Below are positions 1 to 34,244 of a stretch of 50,406 nucleotides of DNA, piece by piece. This DNA is from a virus. The notes beneath the pieces are model-generated. The model made no database searches. It saw nothing but the letters and a program-made list of their open reading frames with translations, and was not told the origin of the DNA. The position numbers and the translations under genes were made by a program. Numbering within the stretch: the first letter of the stretch is position 1; every line of letters starts with the position of its first letter. The stretch spans positions 1 to 50,406 of the IMG/VR virus record IMGVR_UViG_3300042402_002865, one strand, 5' to 3'.

Positions 1-3000
1 AAACAAAGGTTTTACCATTAGTTGATTGGAACCAGAGTTGACCTGCCAAAGGTGATGCAGGAGCTGTGTCAGAGATAGTTGCGCCACCGATAATGGTTTC
101 AGCAACCCATGCTGTGCCGTTCCATTTTAAGAACTGTCCAGAGGATGGCGACGTTACAGAAACATCACCAATATCATCAAGTGCATTGATTGTGGGGATT
201 GCTGCTGGGACCCATGACGACGAAGCTGACACATACTTGAGGAAGTACCCGTCAGGAGGTGCGGACGCACTGACATCACCGATGTCATCCAAGGTGTTAA
301 TAGTCGGGATGGTGCCGTTTACCCAGCGAGTTCCATCAAACTTTAAGAATTGACCGCTAATAGGGGCAGTGAACAAAACATCAGAAAGGTCGGTCAAGTC
401 TTCTACGAGGTCTGGCTCGCCACTTGCTTGTAGCCAATGGCTGTCGTAATAAACATAGGCTTCGAGCGTTGTTGAGTTAAACCAAATAGCACCCTCTGAT
501 GGACTTGACGGAGCGGTTGCAGAAATCGTTGCACCACCAATAATGGTTTCAGGAATCCAAGCGCTACCGTTCCACTTTAAGAATTGCCCAGAAGATGGAG
601 CAGACGCAGAAACATTGCCAATGTCGTCAAGGGCATTGATTGTTGGGACTGCTGCTGGAATCCATGCGGATGAAGCAGAAACATACTTAAGAAAGTTTCC
701 GTCTGATGGTGCTGATGCAGAAACATCGGATAAAAAGTCAAGGGTAGGAGTGGTTGGACCCCATGTTCCACCAGAACCATAACCAGGGGTAAATGCCAGA
801 ACTTGACCGGTAGTACCCCAGTATGGGTCTATTTGAAATGTGTATTCACCATTACCAAACGTAATGCTATTTGCGTCTAGCATTAAAGACCTGGTACCTG
901 ACTTAAACAGATTTATTCCATTTTCTGGGTGAACGGTCATATAAGCACCATCACCAAGTACCACATTTAAACCAGAAGTAGAACTTAATTCCAAATATGA
1001 CAAATCTTCATTACCATCAAGGCTTAAATAGTTTGTGCCTTTTTTCCATGTTGATGTAATGTTGTCATAGACCAATGGGTTGCCATTAGATGGTGCTGAA
1101 GCATTAACGTCACTGAGGTCGTCAAGTGTTGCATTCAGCGAAACAGAAGCAGAAGAGCCTTCTCCAGCCGTGTGTGTGACAGTAATACCAGTTCCTGCAA
1201 ACAAATCAGACATATAGTTGCCGACAGTGTCTGTTCCGAGGTTGATTGGGTCGTTGACCCATGCGGCACCGTTGTACTTAAGGAAGTCACCAGAAATAGC
1301 AGCCGATGCAGACACATCGCTAATATCATCAAGTATCGAAACTGCGAGCGAAGTAACAAAATCCTCAGAGGCAATGTCATAATACGTACTACCGTCGTCT
1401 GTAAATTCCCACTTATCAGACGTTTCGTTCCAACGAATAGTTGCATTTGGCGATGTTCCACGCTCAACTTCTATTCCAGCATTTGTCGTTGGCGAACCAG
1501 TGACATTGCTGTTTAAGACGACGATGTTGTCTTCAATCGAAAGTGTTTCGGTATTGAGCGTAGTGGTCGTTCCGTTGACAGTAAGGTTCCCACCCACAAC
1601 AACATCACCAGTTGTATTGACTTGCGCAAATGCAACAGATGCACTTGTATCTACCGCTTGTCCGATTGCAATTGTTGGACTTGAACCCTCTGCTGGCGTA
1701 TGTGTAACCGTGATTCCAGTTCCAGCCGTTACGTCGTTAACGTAATTGCCTGTCGTGTCGGTTCCAAGAGCAACGCTATTTGCTCCGATTGTCGTGCTAA
1801 TTGATGCATTAGCAGAACCATCAAAACTTACCGTTCCTGTTACATCACCAGTTAATTCAATTGTTCGTGAAGTAGCCAACTTTGTTGCAGTGGCGGCATT
1901 CCCGGTAGTAGAACCAGAACTTCCAGTTACATTGCCAGTCACATTACCAGTAACATCTCCAGTGACATTTCCAGTGACTGGTGCAGAAACATGTGCAAAA
2001 GTAACTGATGAACTAGTTCCCACTGCCTGTCCAATGGCAATTGTAGGACTTGTTCCTTCACCAGGAGTGTGCGTTACGGTAACGCCAGTTCCAGCAGTCA
2101 CATCATTGACGTAATTACCAGTTGTGTCAGTTCCGAGCGTAACGCTATTTGGCTGAATCGTTGCAGTGATGCTTGCATCTGCAGAACCGTTGAATGAAAC
2201 AGAACCAGAAACATCGCCAGCAAGCGAGATAGTCCGTGCTGTCTCAAGTGTTGAAGCCGTTGATGCATTACCAATCACCGGAGCGGTAACAGCAGCAAAA
2301 GTTACTGACGAAGAGGTCGCTACAGCTTGCCCGATTGCAATAGTTGGAGTCGCTGTTTCTCCTGAGTTGTTGGAGAGTGTTATTCCCGTTCCAGCGACAA
2401 GTGACGAAACATAATCACCAGAGGTATTCGTTCCGAGTGCAACATCGCCAAACGACAAATCTCCCGACCCATTGGTTTTTAGAACCGAACCAGCCGCACC
2501 ATCAGCACCAACTGCGCTAATAATTGACGCTTCTGTTGTACCAACAATTGTCGTGAAGTCCAAAACTCCAGAACCATTTGTAGTAAGTGCCTGTCCATTG
2601 GTTCCATCTCCACCAGCTGCAGAAATAATTGCTGCTGCATCAATGGCTGGGACAGAAGCCCATTCAAGACCTGTTGCCGTTGAAGAGTTTGCCTTTAAAT
2701 AAGTTCCATTCGCACCAACCGCTAGATTGTCTGCTGCACCATCGGCGGTTCCAACAATCAAATCACCTTTTGCTGTAACAGTGTCCAATACGAAGTTAAC
2801 TACACCACCGCCACCAACTTCCACCCAAACCGAATCGTAATAAATAAACATTACGCCGAGGATGGAATCAAACCACAAGTCACCAGCAGCCGGTGATGCT
2901 GGAGCAGACTCGCTTACGGTAACACTTGCGCCACCACCAGTTGGCTCTTGATTCGTCCAGTATGTTCCGTTCCACGTAAGAACATCGCCAGCAGCAACGG

Positions 3001-28089: not shown

Positions 28090-28635
28090 CTATCTATCTG
28101 GATTTGGCGGTCTCTCAATGACTACTGGCAGTTCTTCTCCAGCGGGAACTTCAATTGGAACCCAAGCCCGAGAATACGTGTGTTGGGGTATTTTTCGCAT
28201 CTTTATGAGCGTTCCGTCTAGAAGAAGTTCAAGTTCATCAACCCTCATTGAGAGTAGTCGTGAAAAGTCTTTTGTTGAATACGCTTTGGATATTGAAAGT
28301 TTGCGAATAATGTTTGAAACGCGACGGACTTGCTGGACACCCCGCCCACGATTGAGCTGAAGGTGCATCATCATTGCTTGAGCAGACGAACAGTCAACAT
28401 AATGAACCGGAATCTCTTCGCCAACCTTTTCCTTAATGTGGGGATTGCTGGTAGCAAGCAGGAATCTCTGATTCCCATCAATAATCTCGTTTGTTGCTTT
28501 TCTCACAATAATCGGCTGAATGAATCCATAGTCGCCTAAGGAAACTGCAAGAGTGAGAAGGTCTGGTCTCAGGATGTGGGTTGCCGCCCATTCTGCCATC
28601 TTGAGTTCGCCAACATTTATCATTTCAACTTTCAT
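28090..28635 (-). CDS. ParB/sulfiredoxin-fold protein, IbrB-like, 181 aa
   Basis: The N-terminal 90 residues read like a ParB/Srx nuclease fold: LRPDLLTLAVSLGDYGFIQPIIVRK, then EIIDGNQRFLLA and IPVHYVDCSS. The rest is helical (LSISKAYSTKDFSRLLSM) and ends in a proline-rich tail. It starts inside the end of the PAPS-reductase-like gene (11-base overlap), a coupled pair that matches the IbrA/IbrB arrangement of enterobacterial prophages, where a PAPS-reductase-like protein and a ParB-like one work together. The biochemical function of such pairs is not firmly known to me. Confidence 0.7.
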   Translation of the reverse strand: MKVEMINVGELKMAEWAATHILRPDLLTLAVSLGDYGFIQPIIVRKATNEIIDGNQRFLLATSNPHIKEKVGEEIPVHYVDCSSAQAMMMHLQLNRGRGVQQVRRVSNIIRKLSISKAYSTKDFSRLLSMRVDELELLLDGTLIKMRKIPQHTYSRAWVPIEVPAGEELPVVIERPPNPDR

Positions 28636-29764
28636 CTAATACCACCTCTACTATTTCGGTGCTGCGGACAGCATGGGCTTTTGTTCCTGGACCAATCGGT
28701 GATGCTGATGTGACGTTGATTTCATTGAGAAGAAGATTGCGAATCAGCCAGTTGATTGGATAAGAAAATGGGTCTTGCATGTGTTTCGTGCGGAACTTTG
28801 AAACATACACTCGTGCCCTTCTTTGCATGGTTGGGCCAATAATGTATTCGTCAATAAACTTTCCTGCTCCATCAAATCCATCTTGTGCGTACAGAGCAAT
28901 AAGGGCTTCAATATCAAAGTCTGGCCACATCCGTCTTTGGGAATCAATTCTTGGGTACACCTCAACCAACCTGTCATAGAACTCAGGTTCCGTTGCAATA
29001 ACATCACCGATTCTCCGTATTGCAACTGAGTGGAGGGGAATGCCTACTCGTGTGTTGCTTCCAGTCATCGCTGCAACATCGTAATACTCGCAGTATTCTG
29101 CACCGTGTTCTTCGGTTATGAATTTAAGAACATCATCCATTTGCCAGTCATAGATTATCTTTGCAAACTTGAGTGGAATCCCTTTCTTCATTTTATACGG
29201 AGAAACGATGTAATTCTCGTGCAACTTCTGAACACAAGAACGATAACGAATCATGGATTCATTTGCCCTGACTCCGGTGATAAAAGCAACCCTTCCAGGC
29301 TTTCCCTGCATTGTGTAGTAGTCGATTGATTCTGGCAAAGCGGTTTCATGCGTCAAGCCAAAACTGGTTGCATTGATAGCAAATTCTGGCATTGGTCTAA
29401 CCCACTCACCAAGGTCTTTCCGTCTTTGGCTCCAAAGGATTGCTGATTCACGGCGACCAAGAATCCATACCTCTGCTCCATATGGAAGGCAATACCATTC
29501 CAAATCAATCCAGTCGTAGTCACGAATCTTCATTACATAATCAATGACCAATGGACTAACCATTTCCTCATCACGAAAAATAACTTTTACTGGACCCAGC
29601 CCACGCTCCTCATGTATCTCTTTTGCTAGATACAAAACTGCAGTTGAGTCTTTACCCCCAGAGAACTGAACACACACGGTGTCAAATGTGTCGTAGACGT
29701 GTCTTATTCTGGCACGTGCAGCATCAACGCAACTCATGTCCAAAAATAATCTTTGCCTAGTCAT
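28625..29764 (-). CDS. PAPS reductase-like (IbrA-like) PP-loop protein, 379 aa
   Basis: Residues 31-40 (CVQFSGGKDS) are the PP-loop of ATP pyrophosphatase and PAPS reductase family enzymes, with S35, K38, D39 and S40 intact. VKVIFRDEEMVSPLVIDYV follows as the next beta-alpha unit. In the middle AFITGVRANESMIRY matches the G.R..ES..R element of that family, followed by KIIYDWQMDDVLKFI. Length and pairing with a ParB-like gene suggest the IbrA-type. Unlike true PAPS reductases, I see no ECGxH C-terminal motif, so sulfate reduction is unlikely and nucleotide modification or signalling is more plausible. Confidence 0.75.
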   Translation of the reverse strand: MTRQRLFLDMSCVDAARARIRHVYDTFDTVCVQFSGGKDSTAVLYLAKEIHEERGLGPVKVIFRDEEMVSPLVIDYVMKIRDYDWIDLEWYCLPYGAEVWILGRRESAILWSQRRKDLGEWVRPMPEFAINATSFGLTHETALPESIDYYTMQGKPGRVAFITGVRANESMIRYRSCVQKLHENYIVSPYKMKKGIPLKFAKIIYDWQMDDVLKFITEEHGAEYCEYYDVAAMTGSNTRVGIPLHSVAIRRIGDVIATEPEFYDRLVEVYPRIDSQRRMWPDFDIEALIALYAQDGFDGAGKFIDEYIIGPTMQRRARVYVSKFRTKHMQDPFSYPINWLIRNLLLNEINVTSASPIGPGTKAHAVRSTEIVEVVLDES

Positions 29765-30070: not shown

Positions 30071-30256
30071 TTAATCTATTATCAGTTTTTCTATCTCTTT
30101 TTGAAGTTTTAGTATTTCTGCTTCAAGTTCTAATATTTTTCTGCTTAAAATATTCACTTGCAATTGATGGCAGGCAGATTCGTAAATAAGAGCTGAAATA
30201 CGAAAATCCTTACTCATATCGCTCACAAGGTTCCTATATCTCGCAATGCTCGTCAA
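30071..30256 (-). CDS. Small coiled-coil protein, up to 61 aa
   Basis: The C-terminal 35 residues (LQVNILSRKILELEAEIL, then LQKEIEKLI) show heptads of Leu/Ile with charged positions, a clear coiled coil. ATG at 30256 overlaps the upstream ParB gene by 23 bases. A shorter start at ATG 30217 (MSKDFRIS, 48 aa) is equally plausible. Function unknown. Confidence 0.45.
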   Translation of the reverse strand: MTSIARYRNLVSDMSKDFRISALIYESACHQLQVNILSRKILELEAEILKLQKEIEKLIID

Positions 30257-30995
30257 TGAAGTTCATCAGTCTTTCTGAAGTGGTGTTCCCATCAATACTT
30301 GGATTGCTTCGGAGCCACCTAACAAAGTCATACCAGCGTGACTGCTGTTGAACAGAGTCAAAGACGATTGTGTATTGGACTATCGCATTTGCCGACTTTG
30401 AGCCAGTCGCTGCGGTACTTCCTTTTATAGCCAATTCGTTATGGTCAACTTCATCGTTTGCATGAAGTTCTCCGTCTTCTCTTAACTCTTTTACCAACTG
30501 AGAGACCGGTGTCTGATTTATTAATGGCGGAGTAAAGGTCGTGCTGGTTGCCAGTTCGCTTTCGTCTATATTTGAAAACTCTTCAATGGCAGCAATCTCA
30601 AATTCATCCCATCCAAGGTCGTCAATCAGGTCTGAATACTCATCATTGATTTCTAGAAGCAGTTCCGACAAGAGTCGCTCGTCGGTTTTTCCTAGCTCCA
30701 TTGTTCTGTTGTCGGCAATCGCATAGGCAATCGCTCGTGCCTCATCGCCATCAATATAGACACATGCAATCTCGTTCCAGCCAAGTCGGATGGCGGCTTC
30801 AAGTTGGTGATTACCGGCAATCACTGTTGCGGTTCCGTCTTCGTTCTTGCGAGCGACAATCGGCTTCATTTGTCCAAACTCTCTATATGAAGCCATAATC
30901 GCATCAACATCACCACGTCGTGGATTGTTCTCAAGATGGACAAGCGTATCAATAGCTACGGATGAGCCTTGAAGTGACTTGTGGATGTTGCTCAC
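30234..30995 (-). CDS. ParB-like nuclease/partition-domain protein, 253 aa
   Basis: Translation probably begins at GTG 30995, overlapping the previous stop (GTGA). Residues 15-110 form a ParB/Srx N-terminal domain: HLENNPRRGDVDAI, then FGQMKPIVARK, TVIAGNHQLEAAIRLGW, and AYAIADNRT. The G-N-H-Q/R...A..LGW element is the classic ParB box II. The C-terminal half has an acidic stretch (EFSNIDESELAT) and a domain with RWYDFVRWLRSNP. Phage proteins of this type act as DNA-binding nucleases, CTPases or adaptors for DNA-modifying partners. No partner ParA was seen. Confidence 0.75.
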   Translation of the reverse strand: MSNIHKSLQGSSVAIDTLVHLENNPRRGDVDAIMASYREFGQMKPIVARKNEDGTATVIAGNHQLEAAIRLGWNEIACVYIDGDEARAIAYAIADNRTMELGKTDERLLSELLLEINDEYSDLIDDLGWDEFEIAAIEEFSNIDESELATSTTFTPPLINQTPVSQLVKELREDGELHANDEVDHNELAIKGSTAATGSKSANAIVQYTIVFDSVQQQSRWYDFVRWLRSNPSIDGNTTSERLMNFIDEHCEI

Positions 30996-31329: not shown

Positions 31330-31860
31330 CTAGTTTTCCTTTCGTAGTTGTTCCAGTGGTGACCAATCTATCGTCTTTAATGCATCTTTATTTACTTGCG
31401 GCCAATCAATATTGCTGGTTCCCAAGTGGGTTTTTGCCATTTCCTCAAGAACCCAAGCATCGCATTTATCGTCCCCACCTGGGTTGCTCCATATGATTCC
31501 AGTTTTGGCAGAAATTGAAGAAATGACTTCATTTTTTGAGGCATTGCCTTTTCCGGTGGCGAACTTTGCACGGCAGGTTGGGGGAATTACCACATAGGGG
31601 ATTTCCATCTCAAACAGCAATAAACGGATTACTCCACCCAGTTCTCCAATGGAGTGAGCCTGCGAGTGCCGAGATGCAAAAGAATACCCTTCCATGACAA
31701 CAGTATTGATAGAAAAGTTGAGTGCTAGTGATGCAACTTTTCTCTGAATATCGCAAAGGCGTTCAGCACCAATGGTTTTCGGGGTAATCACACCTGTTTC
31801 GCCATCATGGCAATACCCAGTGGAAGTAAGCGAAAGGTCAAGCGCAAGGATTTTCATCAA
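31330..31860 (-). CDS. RuvC-like Holliday junction resolvase, 176 aa
   Basis: The RNase H fold of RuvC is visible: ILALDLSLTSTGYC with D8, VVMEGYSFA with E57, and GGDDKCDAW with D130, D131 and D134, the acidic residues that bind the two metal ions. Length fits the RuvC family. Such phage enzymes resolve branched DNA before packaging. The gene lies in the recombination block with HNH, Rad52-like and PD-(D/E)XK genes. Confidence 0.82.
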   Translation of the reverse strand: MMKILALDLSLTSTGYCHDGETGVITPKTIGAERLCDIQRKVASLALNFSINTVVMEGYSFASRHSQAHSIGELGGVIRLLLFEMEIPYVVIPPTCRAKFATGKGNASKNEVISSISAKTGIIWSNPGGDDKCDAWVLEEMAKTHLGTSNIDWPQVNKDALKTIDWSPLEQLRKEN

Positions 31861-31883
31861 CTAGAGCATAACCGTCAACATGC

Positions 31884-31911
31884 AAAAGCCGAGTGAGTCT
31901 CCCCACCCGAC
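31884..31911 (-). terminator. Intrinsic terminator downstream of the HNH gene
   Basis: On the minus strand an 8-bp stem (GTCGGGTG with CACTCGGC, including G-U pairs) closes an 8-base loop and is followed directly by TTTT. It ends transcripts coming from the HNH gene, 90 bases after its stop. The RuvC operon downstream then needs read-through or a promoter of its own. Confidence 0.55.
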
Positions 31912-31919
31912 TTTCGCAC

Positions 31920-31942
31920 CTATAACGGTCCTAAGGAATTCC
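31920..31942. other. 23S rRNA helix 69-like sequence (I-CeuI core)
   Basis: Bases 31920-31936 on the plus strand are identical to the 17 bases CTATAACGGTCCTAAGG of bacterial 23S rRNA helix 69/70, the core of the I-CeuI homing endonuclease target. After them rRNA has TAGCGA, which is missing here, and then both continue AATTCC. The transcribed (minus) strand is therefore complementary to 23S rRNA over this stretch. It lies between the HNH gene and the terminator. The comparison is from memory of the rRNA sequence. Confidence 0.7.
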
Positions 31943-31998
31943 AGTTTACATTTAGTGAAAAATATATAAATGCAAGTATTAAAAAAGTTTTAGATATA

Positions 31999-32304
31999 TC
32001 ACCGTTCCCACCCATGCTTTGCCAAACCAAGGTCAAAAGCAAGTTGTGGATAGTTACCGATTCTTGTGTGGCACGGTCTGCAGACTGCTATAACATTATC
32101 TGGGTCGAGTATTGAACCACCCTGCGAGCGTCGTATAAGTTCATGCACATCAGTGGAGCGATTTCTCCTGTACGTCAACTTCTCATCATGTTTTGCAAAC
32201 ACAGGACATGCTTGGCACGCTGGATACTTTGCAAGAATTTCCTCAACGAATGGTCGACGAAGTTTGTATTCTTCTTCTTTTTTCTTGCTTCGTTTCCGAA
32301 TCAT
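31999..32304 (-). CDS. HNH endonuclease, 101 aa
   Basis: A small HNH nuclease: YPACQACPVF gives a CxxC pair, DVHELIRRSQGG the first His of the motif, and LDPDNVIAVCRPCHTRI the N, the second CxxC pair and the final H. The N-terminus is lysine-rich (KRSKKKEEEYKLRR). In phages such proteins act with the terminase or as homing nucleases. It overlaps the upstream gene by four bases (ATGA) and is followed by a gap holding a 23S-rRNA-like sequence and a terminator. Confidence 0.85.
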   Translation of the reverse strand: MIRKRSKKKEEEYKLRRPFVEEILAKYPACQACPVFAKHDEKLTYRRNRSTDVHELIRRSQGGSILDPDNVIAVCRPCHTRIGNYPQLAFDLGLAKHGWER

Positions 32305-32810
32305 ATTGAAGAAAGGTCAACTTTGTCAAATTCCCACCTTTTGTCAAGTGCGGCCCAAAGAGCCCTGTCAATAGAGGTCTCCTCAAGGTCGTATTCTTGC
32401 AACATTAATCTGTGCTGAACAATTGCTCGTCGGTAAAACGAAACCTCTTCCCAGCCATTGCTCTCCGCAATTGCGCCGGTTTCAATCATTTTCGTAACAT
32501 CATCAAGGCGGCGCTCAACATGAAACTTGAATCGCTCAATCTTTCTTTTACGATTGCTGTATGCGGCTTCTGATGCCTCAATAAGTTTTGAACCATCACC
32601 CCCAAACGATGAGTATCTTTGAGTGTCCGCATCAGACTCGGCGTCAATTAAAACAATTTGATTGTTGAGATTATCGGCTAGTGCAACAAGGGCTGCCTGC
32701 CACCTATCCCAGTTGTGTTGCTCCAAGAGGGTATTCCTTTGTGATGGGGAGAGTTTATTCTTAACCTCCTCAGCAACCATTTTTGCAAATGTCTCGTTAT
32801 CAATTACCAT
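32301..32810 (-). CDS. Hypothetical helical protein, 169 aa
   Basis: The frame is open to 32864, but ATG 32810 (MVIDNETFAKMVAEEVKNKL) has a GAGGGAG ribosome binding site and overlaps the end of the nuclease gene by seven bases. The protein is predicted helical with many charged residues (NRKRKIERFKFHVERRLDDV). RAIVQHRLMLQEYDLEETSID lies near the end. I do not recognise a family. It lies between two nuclease genes and may assist recombination or replication. Confidence 0.55.
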   Translation of the reverse strand: MVIDNETFAKMVAEEVKNKLSPSQRNTLLEQHNWDRWQAALVALADNLNNQIVLIDAESDADTQRYSSFGGDGSKLIEASEAAYSNRKRKIERFKFHVERRLDDVTKMIETGAIAESNGWEEVSFYRRAIVQHRLMLQEYDLEETSIDRALWAALDKRWEFDKVDLSSI

Positions 32811-33622
32811 TTTCTCCCTCTTTTCTTTCCAACCCATGCAGGGCATATTCCTTGGTAGGAGCACCAGTCACAAAGTTTTCCAACTTTGGCATCAAACTCC
32901 TTGCTTGCACAGGCTTCAGTAATTTCTTTATGTGTTTTTATAATGTCTTGTCTGACATCTTCAATATCTTGTGGTGTTGGCTTGTGTGTAAATTTTACAG
33001 CCTCTTTAAGGAATATCAATTCAAGTTCGTCAATTGGTTTTTGTAGTTCCTCGCCAAGCAACATTGCATAAATTGAAAGTTGATACCACTTCTCTTCAAG
33101 CCACTTTTTCATTTTTGGTGCTTTACCTGTTTTGTAGTCAGAGATTTTTAGTCCACCGTTTTCAGAAACGGTATAGCGGTCAATAAATCCCTTCAGTACA
33201 ACACCAGTGGCAATTTCTCCACCAACCTCGTTCTCGACACCACTCGGCTCAACATGCATTGGGTCTTCAATTATCCAAAGGTTTTCAATGCACCACCAAG
33301 AATTCCATCGGAGTTGTCTTACGCCCTGCTCTGTGTGAACAATTTGCTCAACTTGTTGCTGCCAATTATTAGTAGCCCAAATATACGATGAAATCTGTTT
33401 GGCATTGAGCAGTGTCCTTTCAGCCGCTGGTTGCTTGTACAGATGTTCTAGAACCTCGTGCACGAAAGAACCCATCAACAAGGCTTCGCTGGTGCCTTCT
33501 GGGATTTTATCAATGCGACTTAGTTTGTACCTAAGTGGGCATTGTTTCCATGTGGAGATAGATGATGCCGAAAGATACGGCGGGGGGACGATTGCCCCCT
33601 CGCTCTCAGACGGCAGTTGCAT
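32804..33622 (-). CDS. PD-(D/E)XK exonuclease, Cas4/RecB-like with iron-sulfur cysteines, 272 aa
   Basis: Start ATG 33622 (MQLPSESEGAIVPPP) is preferred over 33715, which would overlap the Rad52-like gene by 110 bases. LSASSISTWKQCPLRYKL near residue 20 carries the first Cys and GSFVHEVLEH the family His. LKGFIDRYTV gives D148, and LKISDYKTGKAP gives D162 and K164 of the D-x-K core. KLCDWCSYQGICPAW near the C-terminus supplies three more cysteines. These suit a 4Fe-4S cluster as in Cas4 and AddB-type nucleases. With the neighbouring Rad52-like annealing protein it could form a recombination pair (exonuclease plus annealase). Confidence 0.82.
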   Translation of the reverse strand: MQLPSESEGAIVPPPYLSASSISTWKQCPLRYKLSRIDKIPEGTSEALLMGSFVHEVLEHLYKQPAAERTLLNAKQISSYIWATNNWQQQVEQIVHTEQGVRQLRWNSWWCIENLWIIEDPMHVEPSGVENEVGGEIATGVVLKGFIDRYTVSENGGLKISDYKTGKAPKMKKWLEEKWYQLSIYAMLLGEELQKPIDELELIFLKEAVKFTHKPTPQDIEDVRQDIIKTHKEITEACASKEFDAKVGKLCDWCSYQGICPAWVGKKRGRKW

Positions 33623-34244
33623 TAAACGATACTGATACTGCCTCGGTGAGTAATTTTTCAAGCAAGTCAGAAGAAACATCTCCAGCCTTGCGAGGCTTCG
33701 GTGTATCTCCTGCAATTGAAACCCAACGCTGGTTCAGTGCTTGCTTTTGGTCGTCCGAAAATGTCTTGGTGATACCAACGAGTTTGCTGAAGTTCTCAAC
33801 TTCAGCCGAGGATGGTGCTGGAGCATCCATTACTTGCTCAATTTCCATTGCATCTTCACTACGTGCAAGATAAAGGCCAATGCCAAGTGTCTGAACTGCT
33901 TTCTTCAAAGCATCGGAAACAGCACCCTTGACTTCATCGCCGATGTCAACTGGTTCGCCCTGTTTGTTTATTTTAATCTTTTGTCCACCCACACCATCAC
34001 GTGAAACCATTGTTCCGTTGATGTTTGCATTGACAACCACATGGGCAACAATCGATGTTCCAAGTTGTTCCCACTTCTTGATTGAAAACGACCATGCCTC
34101 AACACCGAGGACTTTATTCATCCTGTTAATGACTTCGCTAACTGGAATGTAGGTAAGGCTTGCTCCACCCTTGTTGAGGGTTCGCTCCATCTCTTGCGGA
34201 AATGGTTCGGATAGGTTTTGGTATGTATTATTCGTTGTAGTCAT
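33606..34244 (-). CDS. Rad52-family single-strand annealing protein, 212 aa
   Basis: The N-terminal pattern LTYIPVSEVINRMNKVLGVEAWSFSI, and then GDEVKGAVSDALKKAVQTLGIGLYLA, is diagnostic of the Rad52/Rad22 family. The first part forms the ssDNA-binding groove and the second the A.K....G.gLY helix. The C-terminus from about residue 140 is a variable tail. It anneals complementary single strands during phage recombination. It overlaps the hypothetical upstream gene by 17 bases and the PD-(D/E)XK nuclease downstream by 17 bases. Confidence 0.85.
   Translation of the reverse strand: MTTTNNTYQNLSEPFPQEMERTLNKGGASLTYIPVSEVINRMNKVLGVEAWSFSIKKWEQLGTSIVAHVVVNANINGTMVSRDGVGGQKIKINKQGEPVDIGDEVKGAVSDALKKAVQTLGIGLYLARSEDAMEIEQVMDAPAPSSAEVENFSKLVGITKTFSDDQKQALNQRWVSIAGDTPKPRKAGDVSSDLLEKLLTEAVSVSFNATAV

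Follow-up and report, generated by a model that had tools for sequence, protein, structure and literature searches.

A small RNA gene that has very probably been selected for complementarity to 23S rRNA lies on the minus strand of the viral DNA analysed here, the whole 50,406 nt of IMG/VR virus record IMGVR_UViG_3300042402_002865 (hereafter, the window). Its sequence and those of its relatives suggest that the RNA is made and would bind 23S rRNA, and the recurrence of such an antisense RNA in phages suggests an undescribed way to bind or block host ribosomes. The best explanation taken as a whole, an antisense RNA acting at helix 69 (H69) and H70 to block new ribosomes, stands at about even chances.

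The plus strand at positions 31920-31936 reads CTATAACGGTCCTAAGG and is identical to the H69/linker region of 23S rRNA in a Salmonella 23S record, where the match starts at position 1955, and in the 23S rRNA of a Deltaproteobacteria metagenome-assembled genome (MAG). The exact 17-base match to the I-CeuI core of 23S rRNA, with which the original prediction began, is thus borne out. In E. coli numbering we take the matched segment to be C1914-G1930, that is, the 3' half of H69 and the H69-H70 linker. At 17 nt it is the longest exact match between the window and either 23S strand (runner-up, 14-15 nt), and the longest 23S match in 30 shuffled windows was 13-15 nt. No 23S gene was found within the window. 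The resumption of the match with AATTCC after a 6-base gap, also claimed earlier, is present when TAGCGA is skipped, but it was downgraded as key evidence because GGAATTCC is a palindrome and the block is restricted to subgroups: GGAATT occurs in the window and L001-type subgroups only, is not kept across the family, and is absent from most relatives.

The predicted anatomy of the RNA (Table 1) rests on several conserved features. In 21/21 window-group representatives having upstream sequence, a TAnnnT hexamer precedes CTTAGG, the CUUAGG of the core, by 13 or 14 nt, and its position is kept while the remaining upstream region differs; from this spacing, transcription is predicted to start with the C of CUUAGG or a base adjoining it. 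A promoter scan found no canonical -35 element upstream of the window element. In several main-group loci that are otherwise different (L013, L019, L053, among others), TTAACACTTTCAGTATTTA or a TTGACA-containing variant is conserved about 27-46 nt before the core; the spacing is unfit for a sigma-70 -35 element, and the motif may belong to a phage-specific type of promoter.

Downstream of the core, CUUAGGACCGUUAUAGG, comes a strong hairpin in which compensatory changes are found across 22 representatives (UA/CG, AU/GC, CG/AU/GC, and UA/AU/CG/GC at individual pairs). Because G-U pairing within it is possible in minus-strand RNA alone, the strand of the transcript is fixed. The window RNA is predicted to fold into a mostly exposed 5' 17-mer and a hairpin of -29.4 kcal/mol; the predicted 17-bp duplex with 23S rRNA amounts to -28.1 kcal/mol, against a modelled local 23S opening cost of about 4.4 kcal/mol. 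As for the intrinsic terminator proposed earlier, a long stable hairpin does occur on the minus strand, but it is not a canonical terminator: four U residues lie inside its 3' arm, no U-run follows, and a terminator scan returned 0 hits. The 3' end of the RNA is therefore uncertain. In many relatives a U-run does follow the hairpin.

Table 1. Features of the predicted small RNA and of its surroundings (window coordinates).
Feature	Position	Strand	Remarks
Predicted small RNA, ~61 nt	31876..31936	-	From spacing to the -10 box, fold, and conservation; 5' end ~31936, 3' end approximate
Predicted -10 hexamer TAAACT (TAnnnT)	31943..31948	-	Position conserved in group
Predicted single-stranded anti-23S segment CCUUAGGACCGUUAUAGG	31919..31936	-	31920-31936 complementary to 23S C1914-G1930
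Terminator-like hairpin	31880..31919	-	~16-18 bp including G-U pairs
GGAATT	31937..31942	-	Complementary to 23S AAUUCC beyond a bulge of 6 nt; transcription probably starts just downstream
RuvC-like Holliday junction resolvase, downstream gene	31330..31857	-	ATG at 31857; PHROG 159, E 5.7e-33
Small HNH endonuclease, upstream gene	31999..32304	-	PHROG 15522 and Pfam HNH; 101 aa
PDDEXK exonuclease and Rad52/Erf-like annealing protein	32804-34244	-	Adjoins the RuvC-like resolvase as a recombination module
Phosphoadenosine phosphosulfate reductase-like auxiliary gene	28625-29764	-	Adjacent to ParB-like gene region (30234-30995)
Single ORF, 3772 aa	38431-49749	+	Probably giant virion-associated protein

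The element is widespread among uncultured viruses. The exact window 23-mer recurs in 12 other IMG/VR viral contigs, YGCACCTATAACGGTCCTAAGG is found in 51 IMG/VR contigs, and the pattern BCTATAACGGTCCTAAG, whose B excludes the A of genuine 23S rRNA, matches at least 119 IMG/VR viral contigs. Most of the latter matches are not due to chance, since a reversed-pattern control reached only 11 contigs. A pattern built on the hairpin alone is found in 36 contigs; in all 37 loci sharing only this hairpin pattern (window included), the preceding 17 nt are exactly CTTAGGACCGTTATAGG and the region further upstream varies. Between groups, the hairpin is wholly different and the core unchanged. All 18 records tested carry a single copy, and the RNA element occurs in several unrelated genome contexts, those of huge phages included. 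Main-group elements are flanked by the RuvC-like resolvase gene and, on the other side, by an HNH gene or a different one. The resolvase gene is the same-strand downstream neighbour in most main-group loci and not part of the RNA; at other loci different genes take the place of the HNH gene. Protein similarities in the main and L017/L096 groups point mainly to actinobacteriophages, from which we infer an actinobacterial host. Actinobacterial 23S rRNA is presumably identical at the target site.

Two further lines of complementarity lie outside any search seed and so constitute independent evidence. The first is an extension of the pairing beyond the core. Directly before the core stand AAUUUCGCUAUC/AAUUUCGUUACC in L080 and L112 and UUUCGCUAUC in L088, giving these three loci 25-27 contiguous 23S pairs (G-U included), with 12 pairs beyond the 16-nt core; in L116 there are 23 contiguous pairs, 7 of them beyond it. 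An equally good extension is found in 0.03-0.07% of 23S registers, i.e., a chance of 0.0003-0.0007 each when all registers are considered. The extended duplexes are predicted at -42 to -43 kcal/mol. L075/L096 and the L017 group show the same extension with one bulged base, and in some family members the pairing reaches position ~1940 of 23S rRNA. In L080, L112, L075, and the L017 group, a TATACT box stands ~25 nt before the core and is followed by a small hairpin (GCGA..UCGC), the 3' side of which supplies the extra 23S complementarity.

The second line comes from a second family, found through CGTTATAGCTTCGGCTAT and YCGTTATAGCTTCGGCTAT and consisting of 28 contigs and the 735-kb uncultured phage LR756501.1. 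Its RNAs contain the hairpins ACGG-(A)CUUAGGA-CCGU and AUAGC-UUCG-GCUAU and a terminator with the loop UUCGCUA or a near variant. In each of the 29 members, UUAGG stands in one loop and UCGCU[A/C] in another, that of the terminator, and the two loops are complementary to 23S stretches lying side by side (about 1923-1928 and 1929-1937). LR756501 and L266 differ from the others by ACGAU/AUCGU in place of ACGG/CCGU in the first stem and by U in place of C in the core, differences that preserve both the hairpin and, through G-U, the 23S pairing. Part of the 23S-complementary strand is, however, paired inside the family's own hairpins. Members lie directly after the stop codons of varied genes, with strong poly-U terminators, or in a tRNA array: in L212, a 324-kb viral contig, the element (2296-2368, minus strand) sits between tRNA-Val and tRNA-Glu in an array of 19 tRNAs, and its position on the tRNA strand marks it as an RNA gene. 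CGTTATAGCTTCGGCTAT alone was rejected as a family signature: most distinct matches were capsid codons for RYSFGY, and a Y-prefixed pattern separated the real ones. Together, conservation, extended and second-site complementarity, the -10 box, hairpin covariation, and the tRNA-array copy strongly support the earlier suggestion that a minus-strand RNA could base-pair with 23S rRNA.

The 23S target is identical in Gram-positive and Gram-negative records and in most bacteria found; among 58 MAG genomes of a single phylum, in many of which 23S was probably not assembled, 20 contain it exactly. Searches of bacterial genomes gave 0 matches for GCRCCTATAACGGTCCTAAG (the main-group element) and four for GCTATAACGGTCCTAAG, none with the family anatomy; in cultured phages, matches occurred only in contaminating 23S records (the 735-kb genome, the one other match there, is uncultured), and the core is absent from four named phages related by protein. 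In Rfam 15, no match to the window reached the gathering score and none to the element was found at E<=5, with no LSU, intron, or HEARO/OMEGA family among them. Neither Rfam nor the open-access journal literature searched yielded a natural phage or bacterial RNA antisense to a 23S functional centre. Several isolated matches were discarded: that in Klebsiella phage TTM-TASP117 (22/23) adjoins an N gap and has no hairpin, one on an Arthrobacter plasmid is similar in the hairpin only, and two non-identical plasmid matches represent degraded or noisy 23S. At ~4150 of L144, from the Deltaproteobacteria MAG JAEPMI010000009.1, a 23-nt exact 23S antisense sequence, TCGCTACCTTAGGACCGTTATAG, lies away from the one 23S gene detected in the assembly; its 8-kb locus has no Rfam match, and it may represent a copy of bacterial origin, a remnant of a prophage, or a chance match.

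According to the best explanation, the 5' segment of the RNA would pair with 23S 1914-1930 (the 3' half of H69 and the H69-H70 linker), and the stable hairpin would protect or terminate the RNA. The targets would be free 50S subunits or the still undocked H68-H71 region of pre-50S particles, whether nascent or late, and hybridisation there would block H69 folding and bridge B2a. New host ribosomes would be kept from maturing or joining, and those already translating phage mRNA would be shielded. If binding occurs, such an effect on the 50S subunit, sparing ribosomes on phage mRNA, seems plausible at somewhat less than an even chance. It is favoured on account of the flexible pre-50S region, the harm done by H69 mutations, and the inhibitory PNA: H68, H69, and H71 are flexible and undocked in late pre-50S particles, H68 docking being rate-limiting (PMC11260487); the H69 mutations A1912G, A1919G, and Psi1917C inhibit translation strongly, and substitutions in H69 impair the formation of 70S ribosomes or abolish translation (PMC1190176); and a synthetic PNA against H69 inhibits the growth of E. 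coli (Kulik et al. 2017, as reported by the citing article PMC7038079). Against the explanation as a whole, a lytic phage needs ribosomes, so a general blocker would seem self-defeating unless it acts late or on nothing but immature or free subunits. In the mature 50S subunit, moreover, H69 is structured and has to be opened at the cost given above, and both the missing U-run of the window hairpin and the partly paired strand of the second family weigh on the same side.

The same binding evidence would also serve a protective role, in which the RNA acts as a shield or decoy on H69-H70 against a host abortive-infection RNase or modifying enzyme and the ribosomes stay usable for the phage. This alternative is unlikely, though it does away with the difficulty of a phage that blocks its own translation, and sites of ribosome-targeting enzymes adjoin or overlap the paired segment (those of MazF-type toxins at H70 UUCCU, of RluD, of RlmD, and, in actinobacteria, of TlyA). 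Pairing to H69 would, however, itself disturb bridge B2a, and mutations in H69 are harmful (PMC1190176).

The nuclease-guide, cis-leader, and homing-site readings fit the second family poorly. A guide-like 5' segment followed by a hairpin, flanked by HNH and RuvC-like genes in the window group, could indicate an RNA leading a phage protein to the multicopy, universal 23S rDNA of the host for chromosome cutting. Such a nuclease guide is improbable: the wholly different hairpins of the groups offer no common protein-binding scaffold, the HNH protein is only 101 aa long and many loci have none beside the element, no RuvC-like gene was observed in the immediate surroundings of second-family elements, and there is neither a Rfam HEARO/OMEGA match nor a constantly adjacent effector. 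Just as improbable is a cis-acting role, with transcription starting from the core and the 23S-complementary leader and hairpin controlling translation of the RuvC-like resolvase. The window hairpin ends ~23 nt short of the ATG of RuvC, which is encoded on the same strand, and RuvC is the constant downstream neighbour within the main group; yet the spacing between element and RuvC varies from about 44 to 290 nt, and second-family elements follow stop codons with poly-U terminators or lie in a tRNA array, no RuvC being seen downstream.

The original prediction had also offered a homing nuclease, for instance the adjacent HNH enzyme, with the site as its scar or target. A homing endonuclease scar, decoy, or target (I-CeuI-like), or a 23S rDNA remnant, would agree with the location of the sequence in the I-CeuI site region and with the neighbouring HNH gene of the window, but it is highly improbable and was rejected: no 23S sequence continues past the pairing segment, CTATAACGG is preceded by a base other than the A of 23S, the promoter and hairpin anatomy recurs in unrelated genomes, a second complementary loop is separately placed, and the neighbours vary, the HNH gene among them, with no intron or rRNA family match. 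Chance similarity, already thought unlikely in the original prediction, retains next to no probability: single 17-mers do match in large collections, as the 11 contigs of the control pattern illustrate, but shuffled windows stop short of 17 nt, more than 100 structured, promoter-positioned copies occur in independent contexts, and the extended and second-site complementarity refutes it.

Trans-acting antisense sRNAs of bacteria and phages are short RNAs with a 5' seed and a terminator hairpin. As predicted, the phage RNA would resemble them in its length of ~60 nt, in a -10 box of its own, and in presenting an exposed pairing segment at the 5' end and a stem-loop at the 3' end; it has a conserved segment, predicted to be mostly unpaired in the window RNA, that is complementary to a target encoded elsewhere (17-27 nt, predicted at -28 to -43 kcal/mol). 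Its target, by contrast, is a universal site of rRNA instead of an mRNA, and its pairing segment is nearly invariant across unrelated phages. Box C/D and H/ACA guides of archaea and eukaryotes likewise are small RNAs pairing with the same critical part of large-subunit rRNA, whereas the phage RNA is viral and shows no visible C/D or ACA boxes or kink-turn. To our knowledge, bacteria have no guide machinery for such RNAs, and the guides known to pair with rRNA come from archaea or eukaryotes and are built differently. HEARO/OMEGA RNAs (IscB/TnpB-type) are similar in being short, in their guide-like segment, and in the HNH gene near the element in the window; the phage element differs in having no Rfam match, conserved scaffold, or large attached effector. 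Phage ribosome-binding proteins (e.g., PMC10914614) are also phage factors directed at the host ribosome, being proteins there and an RNA here. The synthetic H69 PNA, as described in PMC7038079, is similarly a base-pairing agent on H69 that inhibits E. coli growth; being artificial, it demonstrates no more than that pairing of this kind is able to inhibit.

That a single-copy antisense RNA against the near-universal H69-H70 site, shared by unrelated and huge phages, halts new 50S maturation or subunit joining is put forward tentatively. If true, viruses would naturally produce an inhibitor of ribosome biogenesis that acts as an antisense to rRNA. Confirmation would mean that viruses seize the host ribosome by base-pairing at a site unable to mutate easily, and ribosome takeover in uncultured freshwater and huge phages would become directly testable. 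It would also provide a natural template for H69-directed antisense inhibitors, a site that synthetic oligomers already pursue.
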